Source of the DNA: an uncultured bacterium
GTDB lineage: Bacteria > Acidobacteriota > Thermoanaerobaculia > Thermoanaerobaculales > Thermoanaerobaculaceae
Direction: 5' to 3'
DNA: 64,000 bases
NCBI GenBank assembly: GCA_937924755.1
Contig: CALEVZ010000025.1
Coordinates: 1 to 64,000, forward strand
This document shows, in pieces, positions 25,398 to 33,907 of the stretch (position 1 is its first letter; each line of letters opens with the position of its first letter). The position numbers and the translations under genes are program-made. Below the pieces are notes generated by a model. That model saw only the letters and a list, made by a program, of their open reading frames with translations. It was not told the origin of the DNA and ran no database searches.

Positions 25398-27032
25398 CTA
25401 ATTCTTGTGAATCTCGAACACCCTCAAAGATCCCGGCGTTGTCCGCCCATCGGAGGACATGACGACCAGGCCTTTGCCGCCGCCAGCGAGGGGAACCAGC
25501 GCGAAATCATTGATGTAGGCATCCCCGAATTCCAGCTCTGCGGCCCGCTCCCGGTAAAGAGTCCCATCGGTTCCCTGTAGGTAGATGTCCATTCCTCCAT
25601 TCTGCCGGCCGAGCACGAGATCGAGGCGGCCGTCGCCGTCCAGATCGAGAAGCCGAGCGGTCGTGAAACGGTCGAAATCGGCATGCTCGGCGTGCAGCAG
25701 GTCGCGACTCACCACCACGTCGTCCCCCTGCTGGGAGATGCGGAAAATGGCCACCGCGTTCATGGGGTGCTGGCGTCCGCCGGAGCGGGGGCTCTGGGCA
25801 AAACCGACCACCGCCTCGTCGCCCTCCTCGCCATCCAGGTTTCCGGCGGCCACTGCCAGGCCATAGGCCAGGTAGGGGAACTCCGGGCTGGACACCGGGC
25901 GGAAGGTGCGGCCGTCGCCCGAGTTGAGATAGATCCAGTAGGGAAACACGTTCTTGTGGGACGAAACGAGGATGTCCGGGGCTCCGTCACCGTTGAAATC
26001 CCCCACCGCCACCTTGTCACCGTAGAGGTTGGGCGTGGACCCGGAGACGTCCACATTGACCCACCCATCGGCACGGTTGAGAACCACCTGCAGCAGCCCG
26101 TTGGCAAGCCCCTGGCTGGTCCCGAGGTCGATATCCAGTTCCGCCAAGAGCGCCACATCGGTGCGACCATCGCGGTCGAAGTCGGCCAGCGCCAGGGCCC
26201 GCGACGACACCATCATGTTCGCCCGCGGCAGCTCCACGAAACGAGTGAAGTCGCCCTTGCCGTTGCCGTACATCACCCAGGCGCGCTTGAAGTGGCTGGT
26301 GAGGACGATGTCCAGGTGGCCGTCGCCATCGAAGTCAGCCACGCCCACGTCGCCGTAGTCCATGGAGATGGATGGCCAGCGCGCCTCTCGCCACAGGCGC
26401 CACCCGGTTTTCGTCTGCAATGCCACCGAAGGCCGCCCGTCACCGAGACGCGGTGGCGGGAGCACCAGGTCGGCGAGCCCGTCGCCGTCGAGGTCAGCGA
26501 CCGCCAAGCCCATCTGCCAACGCCCCTCCTTGGGCAGCCCCTCGCTGCGCTCGACAAAGCGCAGCCGATCGGTGAAGGGCGGCGGCACGTACACCTCGGA
26601 AACGTTGAGGACGAAGTTGGCGTCGCTGTGTTCCTTCTGCATGATCGCCATGGCTTCCATCTGCTCCCGCGCCAGCCAGGCGTTGTGGGCGCCCGATTCG
26701 GGATCCTCGATGGGTAGATTGCGGAGATAGAGGAACTCCTCGTCCTCGTCGACGACCTCCATCTTGATCTTTATCACCGGATGGGGCCAGGCAAACTGCT
26801 GCGACAGACGGATTGCCTTGGCCTTGGGGACCTTGTGGACGTTGTAGTACTCCTTCATGAACTCTGCCCACTCGTCGACCACGGGGGCCTCGGCCGCAGG
26901 CGTGGGGGTGGCAGGAACCGGCATTTGTGGCAACGGCATGGGCGGCCGCGGTGCTGGCGGCGGCGATTGCGCTCCCGCCTGCGTAGCGACCACCACGAGC
27001 CCTGCAAGTAGCACGAAGGTACGAACCGACAT
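25398..27032 (-). CDS. Secreted FG-GAP/VCBS-repeat protein
   Basis: Signal peptide MSVRTFVLLAGLVVVATQAGAQ; repeats DLDGDGLADLVLP, DFDGDGHLDIVLT, DFDRDGRTDVALL, DFNGDGAPDILVS, DLDGDGRLDLVLG. Confidence 0.92.
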   Translation of the reverse strand: MSVRTFVLLAGLVVVATQAGAQSPPPAPRPPMPLPQMPVPATPTPAAEAPVVDEWAEFMKEYYNVHKVPKAKAIRLSQQFAWPHPVIKIKMEVVDEDEEFLYLRNLPIEDPESGAHNAWLAREQMEAMAIMQKEHSDANFVLNVSEVYVPPPFTDRLRFVERSEGLPKEGRWQMGLAVADLDGDGLADLVLPPPRLGDGRPSVALQTKTGWRLWREARWPSISMDYGDVGVADFDGDGHLDIVLTSHFKRAWVMYGNGKGDFTRFVELPRANMMVSSRALALADFDRDGRTDVALLAELDIDLGTSQGLANGLLQVVLNRADGWVNVDVSGSTPNLYGDKVAVGDFNGDGAPDILVSSHKNVFPYWIYLNSGDGRTFRPVSSPEFPYLAYGLAVAAGNLDGEEGDEAVVGFAQSPRSGGRQHPMNAVAIFRISQQGDDVVVSRDLLHAEHADFDRFTTARLLDLDGDGRLDLVLGRQNGGMDIYLQGTDGTLYRERAAELEFGDAYINDFALVPLAGGGKGLVVMSSDGRTTPGSLRVFEIHKN

Positions 27033-27067
27033 CACATCCTCCTTCCACGATACGAACGCCATTTTGG

Positions 27068-27872
27068 TTACACGAGATCGCGGACCGCTGCGGCGCGGCG
27101 GGCGAAGACCGTTGCCCCCATCAGCAGGCCCGCAAAAGAGACTCCCAAAAACGTTCCCAGCCGCGGCAGCGACACGCTGGACCCCATGGTGGCAGCGCGG
27201 AAAACCTCCACCATTCCAGTGAGCGGGTTGAGGAACAACCAACTCGCCCAAGGGCCGGGCACCACGCTCTCCGGGTACAGCACCGGGGTGGCGAAGAGCA
27301 TTACCATCATGCCAAGGCCGACCACCCGGCCGAGATCCGGAAGGAACGCCCCCGCCGGCACCAACACCAGGGCGCCGCCGAAGCTTCCGAAGAGAAACGT
27401 CATTACCCCCAGCATGAGCCAGCCCACTCCGCCCACGACCGCCGGAGTACTCACCACGGCGTACGCCACCACCAGCGCCAGCGCAATCCCGTAGCGCGCC
27501 ATCACCGCGAGGTGCGTCCCCGCCAACATCACCTCCAGTGGCACGCTGACGTGTCGCACCAGCTGCGCCTGGGCGCGGGCCAACTCCACCGCCCTTCCCC
27601 ACACCTCTTGCAGGGCGAGAAACGGCACCAGTCCACTGACCAGGTAGAGACCGAAACCTGCCACCCCCGGCCTTCCTTCAAGACGCATGCCAAGCAGCAC
27701 CGAGAACACGGTGAGATAAAGACCGAACTGGATGACCGGTTCCAGCACCGCCCAGGCTGCCCCCAGCGCCGAGCCCGCGTACCGAACCTTGAACTCGCGC
27801 CACGCCAGCTGCTTCACCAGCCTGCGCCAGCGCCACAGGTTCCCCAGCACTCGAACGAGGTGCACGTTCATC
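27068..27872 (-). CDS. ABC-2 type transporter permease (polysaccharide-export type)
   Basis: LAWREFKVRYAGSALGAAWAVLEPVIQFGLYLTVF, six hydrophobic segments, FLNPLTGMVEVFRAA. Confidence 0.88.
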
Positions 27873-27994
27873 TCCCGACCGGCCGGGGGCCATCCCGCTC
27901 GACGCCCACGACCCTTGACACCCGCCCCATGCGAACCTAGCATAAGAACAGGCTTCCGAGAACCGTCGCAGCAGGTTGCGGAAGCCGCTAGGTA

Positions 27995-28357
27995 GTGATG
28001 AGTCAGGCGACAATGCCCCTCATGCCCGCCTCGGCGGTTGGACGGCGTATCCGACAGGAGCGCCTGGAGCGGAACCTCACCCAGACGGAGCTGGCGCGCC
28101 AAATCGGCATTCAACAGTCCGATCTGTCGCGCATGGAAAAGGGGGAGTACCGCGTCCCTCTGGACGTTCTCTTCCGCATCCTGCAGACGTTCCAGATCTC
28201 CTTTTCCGAGTTTTTCGAGGACGGGCGGCGGGGCTTGACGGAACGGGAATCAGCGCTGCTACGCTCCTTTCGTATGCTCAGCGAGGATGCACAGGCAGAA
28301 GTCGAGGCCTTCGTGGAGTTCAAGATCGCCCGTGAGTCGGGTGGGAGTGCCCGCTAG
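27995..28357 (+). CDS. XRE-family helix-turn-helix regulator
   Basis: RRIRQERLERNLTQTELARQIGIQQSDLSRMEKGEYRVPLDVLFRILQTFQISFSEFF. Confidence 0.92.
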   Translation: MMSQATMPLMPASAVGRRIRQERLERNLTQTELARQIGIQQSDLSRMEKGEYRVPLDVLFRILQTFQISFSEFFEDGRRGLTERESALLRSFRMLSEDAQAEVEAFVEFKIARESGGSAR

Positions 28358-29254
28358 ATGGCTCCGACGGAACGTTATCTGCGGCTGACCGCCCTGGCTC
28401 AACGCGCCTTCTCCCGTGGACGGCTCGAGCGCTCGCTGCGCCTGTTCGAGGCGGCCGAGGCGGAGGCGAGGCGAGGCGGCGACCGGGAGCTGGTCGACCG
28501 GGCCTTCTGCAACCGCTGCGTCGTCCTCGCCGAGCTGGACCGACTGGATTCGGTCTCGGTCGAACTCAAGCACATCCTCATGCGCAGCCGCGATCCCTTC
28601 ACCGCCTGGATGGCTGCCTACTACACTTCCCAGGCGTACGAAGCGGAGGGCGTCCTTTCGCGCGCGCTGGCCTACGCCCGCCGCGCTTCCGAGCTGGCCG
28701 AGATCTGCGGACAGCCCCGCAGCCTCGCCGCTTCGGGCAACCAGCAGGGCGTGCTGGCGCTCAAGGAGTCAAAGTTCGCCGAGGCGGCGCAGTGCTTCGA
28801 AATGGTCCTCCGGCTCGAGGCCGAGCACTCGGAGGATGTTATTGGCAGCGCCATTACCCGCGATAACCTGGGGTATTGCCTGATGTGCACCGGGCGGGTC
28901 AGCGAGGGCATGGCGCTGTGTTGCGAGGCCGCCGCGGCGATCGAGAGCGTCGGCGCCCGCCAGTATCTTCCCGAAATCTATCAGGACATCTGCTACGGTG
29001 CATTGCAGCTGCAGCGGTACGCCGAGGGGCGTATGTGGGGTGAGAAGGCCCTGGCTCTGGCGCGCGAGTACAATCACCAGGGAGTGGAACGGAACACCCT
29101 CATGCTGCTCGCCGACGCTGCCATGGACGAGGGGGACGAGGAGGCCGGGGAGAAATACCTCGACCTGCTCGCCAGCCATTACCCCGACCTCAAGGGCATG
29201 AAGAGCTTTTTCGCCGCCTTCAATGTCCGCGAGGTCATCAACCTGAAGGCGTGA
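28358..29254 (+). CDS. TPR-repeat protein, in frame with and directly after the XRE gene
   Basis: Tandem helical repeats (RSLRLFEAAEAEARRGGDRELVDRAFCNRCVVL, ASGNQQGVLALKESKFAEAAQCFEMVLRLE); TAG then ATG junction. Confidence 0.88.
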   Translation: MAPTERYLRLTALAQRAFSRGRLERSLRLFEAAEAEARRGGDRELVDRAFCNRCVVLAELDRLDSVSVELKHILMRSRDPFTAWMAAYYTSQAYEAEGVLSRALAYARRASELAEICGQPRSLAASGNQQGVLALKESKFAEAAQCFEMVLRLEAEHSEDVIGSAITRDNLGYCLMCTGRVSEGMALCCEAAAAIESVGARQYLPEIYQDICYGALQLQRYAEGRMWGEKALALAREYNHQGVERNTLMLLADAAMDEGDEEAGEKYLDLLASHYPDLKGMKSFFAAFNVREVINLKA

Positions 29255-30282
29255 GGCCAGCGATGCGAAGACTGCTGTCAGTGGTCGCGCTTGGGGTCGC
29301 GGTTGCCGGCACTGGCTGGGCGGCGACGCCCTTTTACCTGGACCGCAGCGGCGTGCTCTGGAAAGCCACCGCCGAACCCACGGGCCTGGTCCTCAGCGCC
29401 GAGCGCGGCGGCGTCAACCTCCTCACCAGCACGGTTCCTTTCATCGTGGGCATTCCCGGGTCCAACGACACCGAGATCCAGGTGGCGGCCGACGAGGTGA
29501 CCGGCAAGGTCGCCGTGGTCTGGCAGCGCAACTGGGGCGAGGGGCTTTCGGAAATTCTCGCCGCGGTGTGGCACGGTGGGGAGTGGGAGCAGCTGGTGCG
29601 GCTGTCGGGCGACTTCTGGACCAATCCCCGCTTCCCGACCATCCGCCTTTCCCAGGTGACGACGGTCGTTGCCGACCCGGAGGATCCCGAAGCCACCGTC
29701 ACCATTCGCGACAGCTTCCTGCACGTCATGTGGTGGGAAGGGCTCGGCGAGGCGCAGGACGCCTCCTACGCCCTGCTGCGCCTCACCGCCGAGCCGGCCG
29801 AAGACGATCGCCTGCGCACGCGCAACCTCGGCGAATTTGCCGCCTCCAGGATTCCCTGCGAGATCGATCCCCCTGCCAGCGTCGTCGAACACCCACTGTT
29901 CGCCTCCCAGCCGACCCACGATCGCGCCCTGCTGTTCTTTGCCACCCCCCGGGTTTGCCTGTTCCATCTTGTGGAGGTGGGATTCGAGCTGGAGCCTCCT
30001 CCCAACGGCGAGGGCGGCTTGGTGGGCACGGTGCAGCGCCGCCGACATCGGCCGGTTTTCGGGGTTCGTACCGTCTTCCCCACCCCTGGGGCCATCTCCC
30101 TGGCTGGGGCGCGGGTGGTTCTGGGCCCCAACCTCTCCCCGGTTGCCTACCGCGTGGTCGGGAGCGAGCTGGAGTACATCGTGGCGCGGCCCCAGGGATG
30201 GAGCGAGAAGAGGACACTCCAGCTCGCCCATGGACTGACCATCGACCAGGCGATTCCCCTGGTGGAGAACCTGGCCCGCTAG
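29251..30282 (+). CDS. Secreted hypothetical protein, possibly beta-propeller-like
   Basis: Signal peptide MRRLLSVVALGVAVAGTGWA; GTGA start/stop overlap with TPR gene; start may be ATG 29263. Confidence 0.75.
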   Translation: MRPAMRRLLSVVALGVAVAGTGWAATPFYLDRSGVLWKATAEPTGLVLSAERGGVNLLTSTVPFIVGIPGSNDTEIQVAADEVTGKVAVVWQRNWGEGLSEILAAVWHGGEWEQLVRLSGDFWTNPRFPTIRLSQVTTVVADPEDPEATVTIRDSFLHVMWWEGLGEAQDASYALLRLTAEPAEDDRLRTRNLGEFAASRIPCEIDPPASVVEHPLFASQPTHDRALLFFATPRVCLFHLVEVGFELEPPPNGEGGLVGTVQRRRHRPVFGVRTVFPTPGAISLAGARVVLGPNLSPVAYRVVGSELEYIVARPQGWSEKRTLQLAHGLTIDQAIPLVENLAR

Positions 30283-31441: not shown

Positions 31442-33907
31442 ATGGTCCACGCGCCGGTGGTGCTCCTCGTCCCGGTCGTGCTGCTCCTGTCCCGCGGAGG
31501 GCGAGCCATGCTGGGCCTTCTCGGTGGGGTGCTGCTGGCCTGGATGAATCTCTGGTGGGTGTTGCCCCTCCTCGAGGTGCCCATCCAGCCCTCGGCGTGG
31601 TTTGTCCTCATGGATTTGCCGCGGCAGTGGTGGGTCAACTCCCTCATCTACCCGGCTGCTCTTCTGGCGCTGCTGGCGGCGCTGGGCGTCTTTTCACCGG
31701 CCGTCGGCAGTCTCGCTCACCAGGCCGCCCAGGCGGCCCGGCGCGGCGACCATTTCGCGGCCGGCGAGCTGCTCCTGCAGGCGGGGCGCCCGCGCCGTGC
31801 TCTGCGTCACTTCCTGCGCGCCCGGGCCTGGGAACGCGCTGGAGAGGTGGCCCGCAGTCTGGGGCACACCCGCCGCGCCGCTGAGATGTTCAAGCGGGCC
31901 GGCGGATCTGCCCTGGCCCAGGCCGCCCAGGCCATGAGCCGGCTGGGAGACACCCACCAGGCGAACCAGTTGTGGCTGCGCTACGGCCAGCATCTGGTGG
32001 AGTCGGGGCAACCCGAACTGGCGATTGACGCTTTTCTCAAGGGCAATGACCCGCGGCGCGCCGCTCGCGCGGTGGAACTGGCGCTGCGCGCCCAGAGGCT
32101 CTCCCCGCCGCTGGCCGATACGGCGCTCCGGGCGGCCAGGCTCGCCCATTCGCCGGATCTGGGGGCCCAGGTGGCCCTGGCCTGCGGGCGCCTGCGCGAG
32201 GCGGGGGACCTCTTCCTGGCTGCCGGCCAACCGGAATCGGCGGCGCGGGCGTTCGAGCGCGCCGGCGAGCCGCTCCGGGCCGCCGACGCCTTGCGCCAGG
32301 CGGGTCAAGGCAAGCAGGCGGCGAGGATGCGAGGTCGTTACCTGGAGTCCACCGGCCAGTTCGAGGCCGCCGTTTTGGAGTACGAACAGGCAGATCTCCA
32401 CGCCGAGGCAGCCGTTGCGCTGGTCCACCTCGGCCGCTGGCAGGAGGCCATCGAGCGCTTTCGCGCCGCCGGTATGGTGGCCGACGCCGCCCAGGTGGCG
32501 CGTACCAGCGGCGATGTGCGCCTGGCCGCCGAGCTCTACCAGGAGATCGAAGAGTGGGAGCTGGCGGGCGAGTGCTGGCTGGCCGCCCGCGAGTACGGTG
32601 CGGCGGCGCAGGCCTTCGAACGCTGCGGGGACTACGAGCGAGCGATGGAGATGCTGGCGCGGGGCGGGCTCACCGAGCACCGCGCCCACCTGATGGCGCG
32701 CCTCGGCCGGGTGGAAGAGGCGCTCGCCACCCTGGTCCATGCAGGCCATCTGGAGGCTGCCCATGAGATGCTACGCCGCTTTGGCGGCTCCTTCCCGCAC
32801 CTGGCGGAGGAACTGGCGCGCATCAGCGACTGGCTGCAGAGCGCCGGCGAAACCACCAGTGCCATTGCCGTCCTGCAGCGGGCCACCGCCGGAGCGCCGG
32901 TGACCAGGGAGCTGCTGCCCGTGCTGTATCGCCAGGGGGTGCTGCTGGAGCGGCGCGGCGACCTCCGCAACGCCGAGATCGTCTTCCAGCGCGTGGCCGA
33001 TTTCGACTACGCCTACCGCGATGCCGCCGAGCGCGCGCAGCGCCTGTCGGCACGTCGCACCTCCAAGGCCGCGGACGACGTCCATCCCCCCTCGCCGGAG
33101 GCCAGCGACGCCGCCAGCCGCTACATCCTCGAGGAGGAGCTGGGCCGGGGGGGGATGGGCGTGGTGTACCGCGCCACCGACCTGCGACTGCGACGCACCG
33201 TCGCCATCAAGATCTTAAACCCCCTCCAGCACACCGAGGAGGCCATGGCGCGCTTCGAGCGCGAAGCGCGCGCCGCTGCCGTTCTATCCCATCCGGGGAT
33301 CGTGCACATCTACGACTTCTCGAAAGGCTTCGGTTCGACCTTCATCTCGATGGAGTTCGTCGAGGGGCACACCTTAAACCACCTGCTGCGCACCGACCCC
33401 GATCTGGTGCGCGAGCAGCTCCTGCCGTTCATGCTGCAAATCGCTGACGCTGTCGGCTATGCCCATGCCCGCGGTGTGATCCACCGGGATCTCAAACCGG
33501 CCAACATGGTGGTCTCCCAGCAGCGGGTGGTGAAGATCCTCGACTTCGGCATCGCCCGTCGGCTCGACGACGTCGAGCCTGACCTTTCCGGCGCCACCGG
33601 CACGCCCTACTACATGGCCCCCGAGCAAATCCTCGGCGAGCCGCCGGACCAGCGCAGCGACATCTACTCCCTGGGGGTGACCTTCTTCCAGATGGCGACT
33701 GCCGTGCTCCCCTTTACCACCGGCAACATCCTGCGCGCCCACATCGAGCAGGAGCCGCCCGACCCGGCCGCCTTGAACCCCGCCCTGCCGCCCGCCCTTG
33801 CGGCTCTCATCCGGCGCTGCATGGCCAAGGACCCGGCCGCCCGGCCTGCCGATGGGACGGCCCTGTACGCCGCCCTGGCGGCGGCGGCGCGGATCGACGC
33901 GCCATGA
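31442..33907 (+). CDS. Membrane protein with TPR-rich N-terminus and C-terminal Ser/Thr kinase domain
   Basis: N-terminal TMs; long TPR region; kinase: YILEEELGRGGMGVVYRATDLRLRRTVAIKIL, HRDLKPANMVV, DFGIARR, GTPYYMAPEQIL. Confidence 0.92.
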   Translation: MVHAPVVLLVPVVLLLSRGGRAMLGLLGGVLLAWMNLWWVLPLLEVPIQPSAWFVLMDLPRQWWVNSLIYPAALLALLAALGVFSPAVGSLAHQAAQAARRGDHFAAGELLLQAGRPRRALRHFLRARAWERAGEVARSLGHTRRAAEMFKRAGGSALAQAAQAMSRLGDTHQANQLWLRYGQHLVESGQPELAIDAFLKGNDPRRAARAVELALRAQRLSPPLADTALRAARLAHSPDLGAQVALACGRLREAGDLFLAAGQPESAARAFERAGEPLRAADALRQAGQGKQAARMRGRYLESTGQFEAAVLEYEQADLHAEAAVALVHLGRWQEAIERFRAAGMVADAAQVARTSGDVRLAAELYQEIEEWELAGECWLAAREYGAAAQAFERCGDYERAMEMLARGGLTEHRAHLMARLGRVEEALATLVHAGHLEAAHEMLRRFGGSFPHLAEELARISDWLQSAGETTSAIAVLQRATAGAPVTRELLPVLYRQGVLLERRGDLRNAEIVFQRVADFDYAYRDAAERAQRLSARRTSKAADDVHPPSPEASDAASRYILEEELGRGGMGVVYRATDLRLRRTVAIKILNPLQHTEEAMARFEREARAAAVLSHPGIVHIYDFSKGFGSTFISMEFVEGHTLNHLLRTDPDLVREQLLPFMLQIADAVGYAHARGVIHRDLKPANMVVSQQRVVKILDFGIARRLDDVEPDLSGATGTPYYMAPEQILGEPPDQRSDIYSLGVTFFQMATAVLPFTTGNILRAHIEQEPPDPAALNPALPPALAALIRRCMAKDPAARPADGTALYAALAAAARIDAP

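Follow-up and report, generated by a model that had tools for sequence, protein, structure and literature searches.

The window analysed here, a 64,000-nucleotide stretch of DNA, contains a three-gene operon that encodes an XRE HTH protein, a TPR protein and a secreted protein. Computational analysis shows that the HTH and TPR genes are separate, that the operon is conserved, and that an operator-like dyad is linked to the HTH gene. No description of an HTH-TPR-secreted operon was found in our literature search, and as far as the searched literature goes it is apparently undescribed. What had been suspected to be a recoding event is replaced by a conserved regulatory operon found across the Acidobacteriota, a phylum in which regulation has been little studied. 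Our preferred model, to which we assign a probability of roughly 55%, is that the HTH protein is an autorepressor acting on the dyad, that a separate TPR partner modulates this repressor, and that the output is expression of the exported propeller. The features of the locus are as follows.

25398-27037 (start codon approximate), minus strand: secreted protein with FG-GAP/VCBS repeats, encoded downstream of the permease; its cluster is found in 50/81 class loci
27068-27871, minus strand: ABC-2 permease (Pfam ABC2_membrane, E=5e-14), divergent from the operon and sharing a 126-base intergenic region with it
27915-27943, plus strand: sigma70-like promoter of the operon, read in the sequence (TTGACA 27915-27920, 17-base spacer, TAGCAT 27938-27943)
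27928-27944, no strand assigned: predicted operator (dyad C-ATG-N9-CAT-A) that overlaps both spacer and -10 box
27998-28357, plus strand: XRE/Cro-C1 HTH protein of 119 aa (Pfam HTH_3, E=4.8e-14), predicted local autorepressor; GTG 27995 is an alternative start and TAG 28355-28357 the stop
28340-28347, plus strand: possible Shine-Dalgarno sequence GGTGGGAG for the TPR gene, read in the sequence within the 3' end of the HTH gene, 10 bases before ATG 28358
28358-29254, plus strand: TPR superhelix protein of 298 aa (AF2 model, conserved ladder), predicted to serve the HTH repressor as partner and sensor
29251-30282, plus strand: secreted protein, 339 aa from ATG 29263, with a signal peptide and a beta-propeller-like fold; GTG 29251 overlaps the TPR stop

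The junction between the HTH and TPR genes

A single frame holds the XRE open reading frame, the TAG at 28355-28357, the ATG at 28358 and a 298-aa open reading frame ending in TGA 29252-29254. Translation of 27995-29254 therefore bears out the initial annotation's observation that the two genes meet in the same frame with zero gap. The annotation had further proposed that the pair might be a fused regulator made by programmed amber readthrough. The DNA around 112 TPR loci was read across the Acidobacteriota, and an HTH gene of the same family lies directly upstream on the same strand in 86/112 (66 pairs from the class of the window and 20 from outgroups).

The two genes are separate in every pair (0/86 fused). 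The TPR gene is in a different frame from the HTH gene in 81/86 pairs and in the same frame in 5/86, where about one third would be expected at random. HTH genes end in TGA (61 pairs), TAG (16) or TAA (9). With just 5/86 pairs sharing a frame, separated by 0, 6, 9, about 117 and about 150 bases and with HTH stops of both TAG and TGA, the in-frame, zero-gap TAG-ATG of the window appears to be a matter of chance. The two genes are joined most often by a 4-base overlap (ATGA or GTGA), the usual arrangement of translationally coupled genes. We are close to certain that HTH and TPR are two such separate, coupled genes.

Readthrough of the amber codon would yield a fused HTH-TPR regulator of ~46 kDa besides the two separate proteins, and the gapless in-frame TAG-ATG speaks for it. 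Against it stand the 86 unfused pairs, 81 of them out of frame, the use of TGA, TAG and TAA alike at the end of the HTH gene, and the SD-like GGTGGGAG ahead of the TPR start. A conserved in-frame stop followed by a conserved downstream frame was not seen among the 86 pairs, in which TAG itself occurs in 16/86. In addition, no amber suppressor with a CUA anticodon was found among the 44 tRNAs detected in the genome (97% complete), a test that does not extend to readthrough by near-cognate tRNAs. Because no pair is fused, neither frames nor stops are kept, and none of the 44 tRNAs reads UAG, we reject programmed readthrough, whose probability we consider negligible. A constant fusion in relatives, in which the TAG here would be a sequencing error or mutation, was likewise ruled out by the 0/86 fused pairs and the varying frames and stops.

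The promoter and its predicted operator

The pattern TTGACA-N8-ATG-N6-TAnCATA, which joins promoter and dyad, is found again, with at most one mismatch, at this locus in 9 more genomes of the family. More broadly, ATG-N9-CAT is present upstream of the HTH gene in 33/66 class pairs, often as CTATG-N9-CATAG, against a mean of 1.6 and a maximum of 5 in 300 shuffles. These counts are supportive rather than exact, because the shuffles preserve base composition only and kinship was left uncorrected, 10 of the 33 dyad loci coming from the window's own family. The count tops all 1,024 combinations of three-base half-site and gap. The 64-kb window contains one strict copy of the dyad, at the operon promoter; it is rare in coding DNA, at 0.011 per 220 bp, and a genome-wide operator search in the family, made as a match to the promoter-dyad pattern with 0-1 mismatch, returned one site per genome, at the operon.

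At many of the 33 loci the dyad overlaps the -35/-10 region, and its position relative to the promoter differs among lineages. It lies over the spacer and -10 box in the window family, and in other families it contains or abuts TTGACA (L072, L083, L122, L081 and L095). That the dyad is conserved as its register to the promoter shifts speaks for a site of protein binding and against a feature of the promoter itself. Among TPR loci with no recognisable HTH gene, the dyad occurs at 1/21, compared with 33/66 of HTH-linked loci (Fisher P=2e-4), and at L072, L083 and L122, where HTH-less TPR paralogues lie beside an HTH copy, the dyad is present. Its occurrence thus follows the HTH gene, which ties it to the HTH protein. 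The exact dyad is missing in half of the class pairs and in outgroups.

Two other sets of elements were noted in relatives. L057-L063, L066 and L075 mostly lack ATG-N9-CAT, and several carry CATACTATA- and GGTACTA-like elements 3' of TTGACG; in these order-level relatives the elements are perhaps a diverged operator. A CAA-N7-TTG repeat in outgroups (12/20) was also considered as an operator and appears to be the reverse strand of the TTGACA box.

We consider it probable that the HTH protein acts locally on the dyad. Computationally, the locus has the form of an XRE protein with an operator over its local promoter, as the dyad lies on the -35/-10 region and is linked to the HTH gene, and the sequence evidence points to a local autorepressor of the operon as the most likely role of this protein. 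It would bind ATG-N9-CAT on the operon's own promoter, and repression rather than activation would be expected because the dyad overlaps the promoter. The ABC-2 permease gene may also be affected, since the dyad sits within the 126-base divergent region. A concrete predicted operator sequence opens the claim of DNA binding to a single gel shift.

Conservation of the operon and the role of the TPR protein

The TPR protein is present in 119/149 genomes of the class and, by profile search, in other Acidobacteriota classes as well. The secreted gene follows the TPR gene in 103/105 loci with room to see it, including 18/20 in outgroups. Its product has a hydrophobic signal peptide followed by a predicted all-beta, propeller-like fold (AF2 pLDDT 90.8, pTM 0.88), which in structure comparison weakly matches propeller lectins, GH43 and sialidases (TM-score <=0.4). 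The HTH family is conserved, with invariant HTH residues (family A3). At every examined locus with this HTH family, the HTH gene adjoins a co-directional TPR gene, and none was found apart from one. TPR genes with no recognisable HTH account for 26/112 loci, mostly in one genus and mostly still with the secreted gene; inspection by eye upstream of these genes revealed N-terminal extensions only and no obvious alternative HTH.

Several features of the surroundings are worth recording. The divergent ABC-2 permease is found at most class loci and was not detected at outgroup loci; indeed, the FG-GAP protein and permease together (25398-27871) are kept in most of the class and unseen in outgroups, often with genes for further secreted proteins after them. 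The HTH-less TPR-secreted pairs of one genus (family f12, g53; L088, L090, L092, L098, L104, L107-L109, L111, L113, L114, L116, L120 and L124) lack the dyad, several being N-terminally extended, and have as neighbours an ECF sigma factor gene and a peptidase-like gene (X6). The HTH-TPR-secreted unit or its TPR-secreted part is duplicated, in tandem or divergently, at L081, L091, L119, L072, L083 and L122, and in divergent duplicates the dyads sit in the common intergenic region. Near the operon, and conserved there in the family, is a single-chain protein with a TPR array and a C-terminal Ser/Thr kinase (31442-33907 in the window). A toxin-antitoxin or defence system was also considered and set aside: the HTH protein matches many XRE families at scores below the NCBIfam cut-offs, and PADLOC gave no match to either the TPR or the secreted protein.

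Pfam supports the assignment of the TPR protein weakly (TPR_12, E=5e-4, below cut-off); the predicted fold makes it clear, with helical hairpins arrayed in a regular superhelix. The AF2 model was made of HTH and TPR joined as one chain, with the TAG read as Q and with unpaired rows (pLDDT 93.6, pTM 0.76); it establishes neither the relative orientation of HTH and TPR nor an interface between them. An Asn/Asp ladder runs through the first helices of successive hairpins, with N52 conserved at 70%, N128 at 93%, N170 at 98%, D210 at 87% and N246 at 88%. The closest folds are LGN-type (eukaryotic) TPRs, and PlcR and RapI rank lower. LGN-type TPRs bind extended peptides.

In the favoured model, one operon would specify an XRE repressor, a TPR protein and a secreted beta-propeller, all translated separately, with translation of the TPR protein started through re-initiation coupled to the HTH stop. 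The TPR protein would be a separate partner whose Asn-lined groove binds a peptide or protein segment in extended form, and by this binding it would modulate the repressor. The output would be adjusted expression of the exported propeller and, in the class, perhaps also of neighbouring export or surface genes. We regard direct modulation of the HTH protein by the TPR protein as an even bet.

Alternatively, the autorepressor operon may be kept as described while the TPR protein serves the secreted propeller as a cytoplasmic chaperone, adaptor or assembly factor, the HTH protein merely controlling the pair. Indeed, the linkage of the TPR gene to the secreted gene (103/105) is tighter than to the HTH gene (86/112), and the TPR-secreted pair is also kept where an HTH is missing. 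The absence of a recognisable HTH from 26/112 loci implies that the TPR protein has some role independent of the HTH and is not merely the detached half of a regulator, and because these HTH-less genes mostly keep the secreted gene, a further or different role, in which it handles the secreted protein, is favoured. This reading is, however, at odds with the failure to find an HTH of the window family without a TPR gene, with the tight HTH-TPR junctions that most lineages keep, and with the collinear alignment to single-chain XRE-TPR proteins described below; as the whole explanation, we hold it to be possible but rather unlikely.

Comparison with known systems

Single-chain XRE-TPR proteins of ~400-430 aa occur in several other Acidobacteriota families (L166-L178, L180-L182; alignment A6). 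They form a distinct family with its own conserved C-terminal motif (FGRLRHLRS...F.EV..FD), for which no named family was found beyond generic HTH and TPR models, and they are an instance of RRNPP-like architecture from a diderm phylum. In other classes, several are encoded at loci of their own in genomes where a split pair is also present. Like the operon, they have an HTH followed by a TPR, in collinear order; unlike it, they are one polypeptide. Of the families compared, the single-chain proteins give the split TPR its best profile match, through their TPR part (E=2e-27, collinear over the full length, versus 4e-16 and 2e-5 for control TPR families), and the split HTH matches the single-chain N-terminus at E=2e-7. 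Because the matches are collinear for both TPR and HTH, the split and single-chain forms are probably related.

The coexistence of both forms in one phylum provides a case for the building of TPR-sensor regulators by fusion or fission outside Gram-positives. It is tempting to go further and propose a two-chain XRE-TPR sensor, widespread in a diderm phylum and related to the single-chain form by fission or fusion, whose groove would read an extended peptide and release the repressor as a switch for export status or peptide. The source of the peptide would perhaps be the secreted propeller expressed alongside, or the pathway that exports it. We regard this broader proposal as speculative and distinctly improbable.

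The initial annotation had described the pair as a split RRNPP-like regulator. The two-subunit HTH-TPR architecture finds support, the genes being adjacent, co-directional and collinear with single-chain XRE-TPR proteins; membership in RRNPP does not. The operon resembles the RRNPP/RRNPPA proteins (PlcR, Rgg, NprR, PrgX, AimR, Rap) in combining an XRE HTH with a TPR superhelix, which at 298 aa, with its ladder conserved along the predicted groove, is within the receptor range of 250-500 aa, and in its weak profile match to RapF (E=1.2e-5) and its fold match to PlcR (Foldseek E=5.7e-6) and RapI. It differs in having two chains, no adjacent small propeptide gene and a poor full-length superposition on PlcR (TM-score 0.34). 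The single chain with N-terminal HTH and C-terminal TPR typical of RRNPP, to which the HTH-less Rap subgroup is an exception, is replaced by separate genes in 86/86 pairs. RRNPP receptors are further defined by an adjacent gene for a small secreted propeptide of 10-100 aa (PMC10075063), and no gene of this type was seen beside the receptor here; the HTH, TPR and secreted genes follow one another without gaps.

A genuine RRNPP quorum-sensing receptor in two pieces, sensing a secreted peptide pheromone, would account for the size of the TPR protein, its Asn ladder, the RapF profile match at about E=1e-5, the PlcR fold match and the XRE HTH gene upstream. The HTH-TPR and TPR-secreted joins, however, leave no space for a propeptide gene, the adjacent secreted product of 339 aa is well beyond the 10-100 aa expected (PMC10075063), and the published RRNPP family comes from Gram-positive Firmicutes. 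We therefore consider such a receptor highly unlikely.

A parallel for the favoured model is Rap/Rco of the Bacillus plasmid pLS20, in which Rap(pLS20) binds the repressor Rco directly as an antirepressor and relieves repression (PMC7430634). Here too, a separate TPR protein is paired with an HTH repressor at a local promoter, with the TPR protein as the predicted modulator; it is most likely a separate regulatory partner of the HTH protein, which it would modulate as Rap(pLS20) does Rco. Unlike Rap/Rco, the operon has no Phr-like peptide gene, closely joins its HTH and TPR genes to that of a secreted propeller, and belongs to a different phylum with no sequence-level membership apparent, the HTH-TPR contact here being a predicted one. 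The operon is a variant of a type of regulation already known, in which the two-subunit idea is plausible and now comes with a testable operator.
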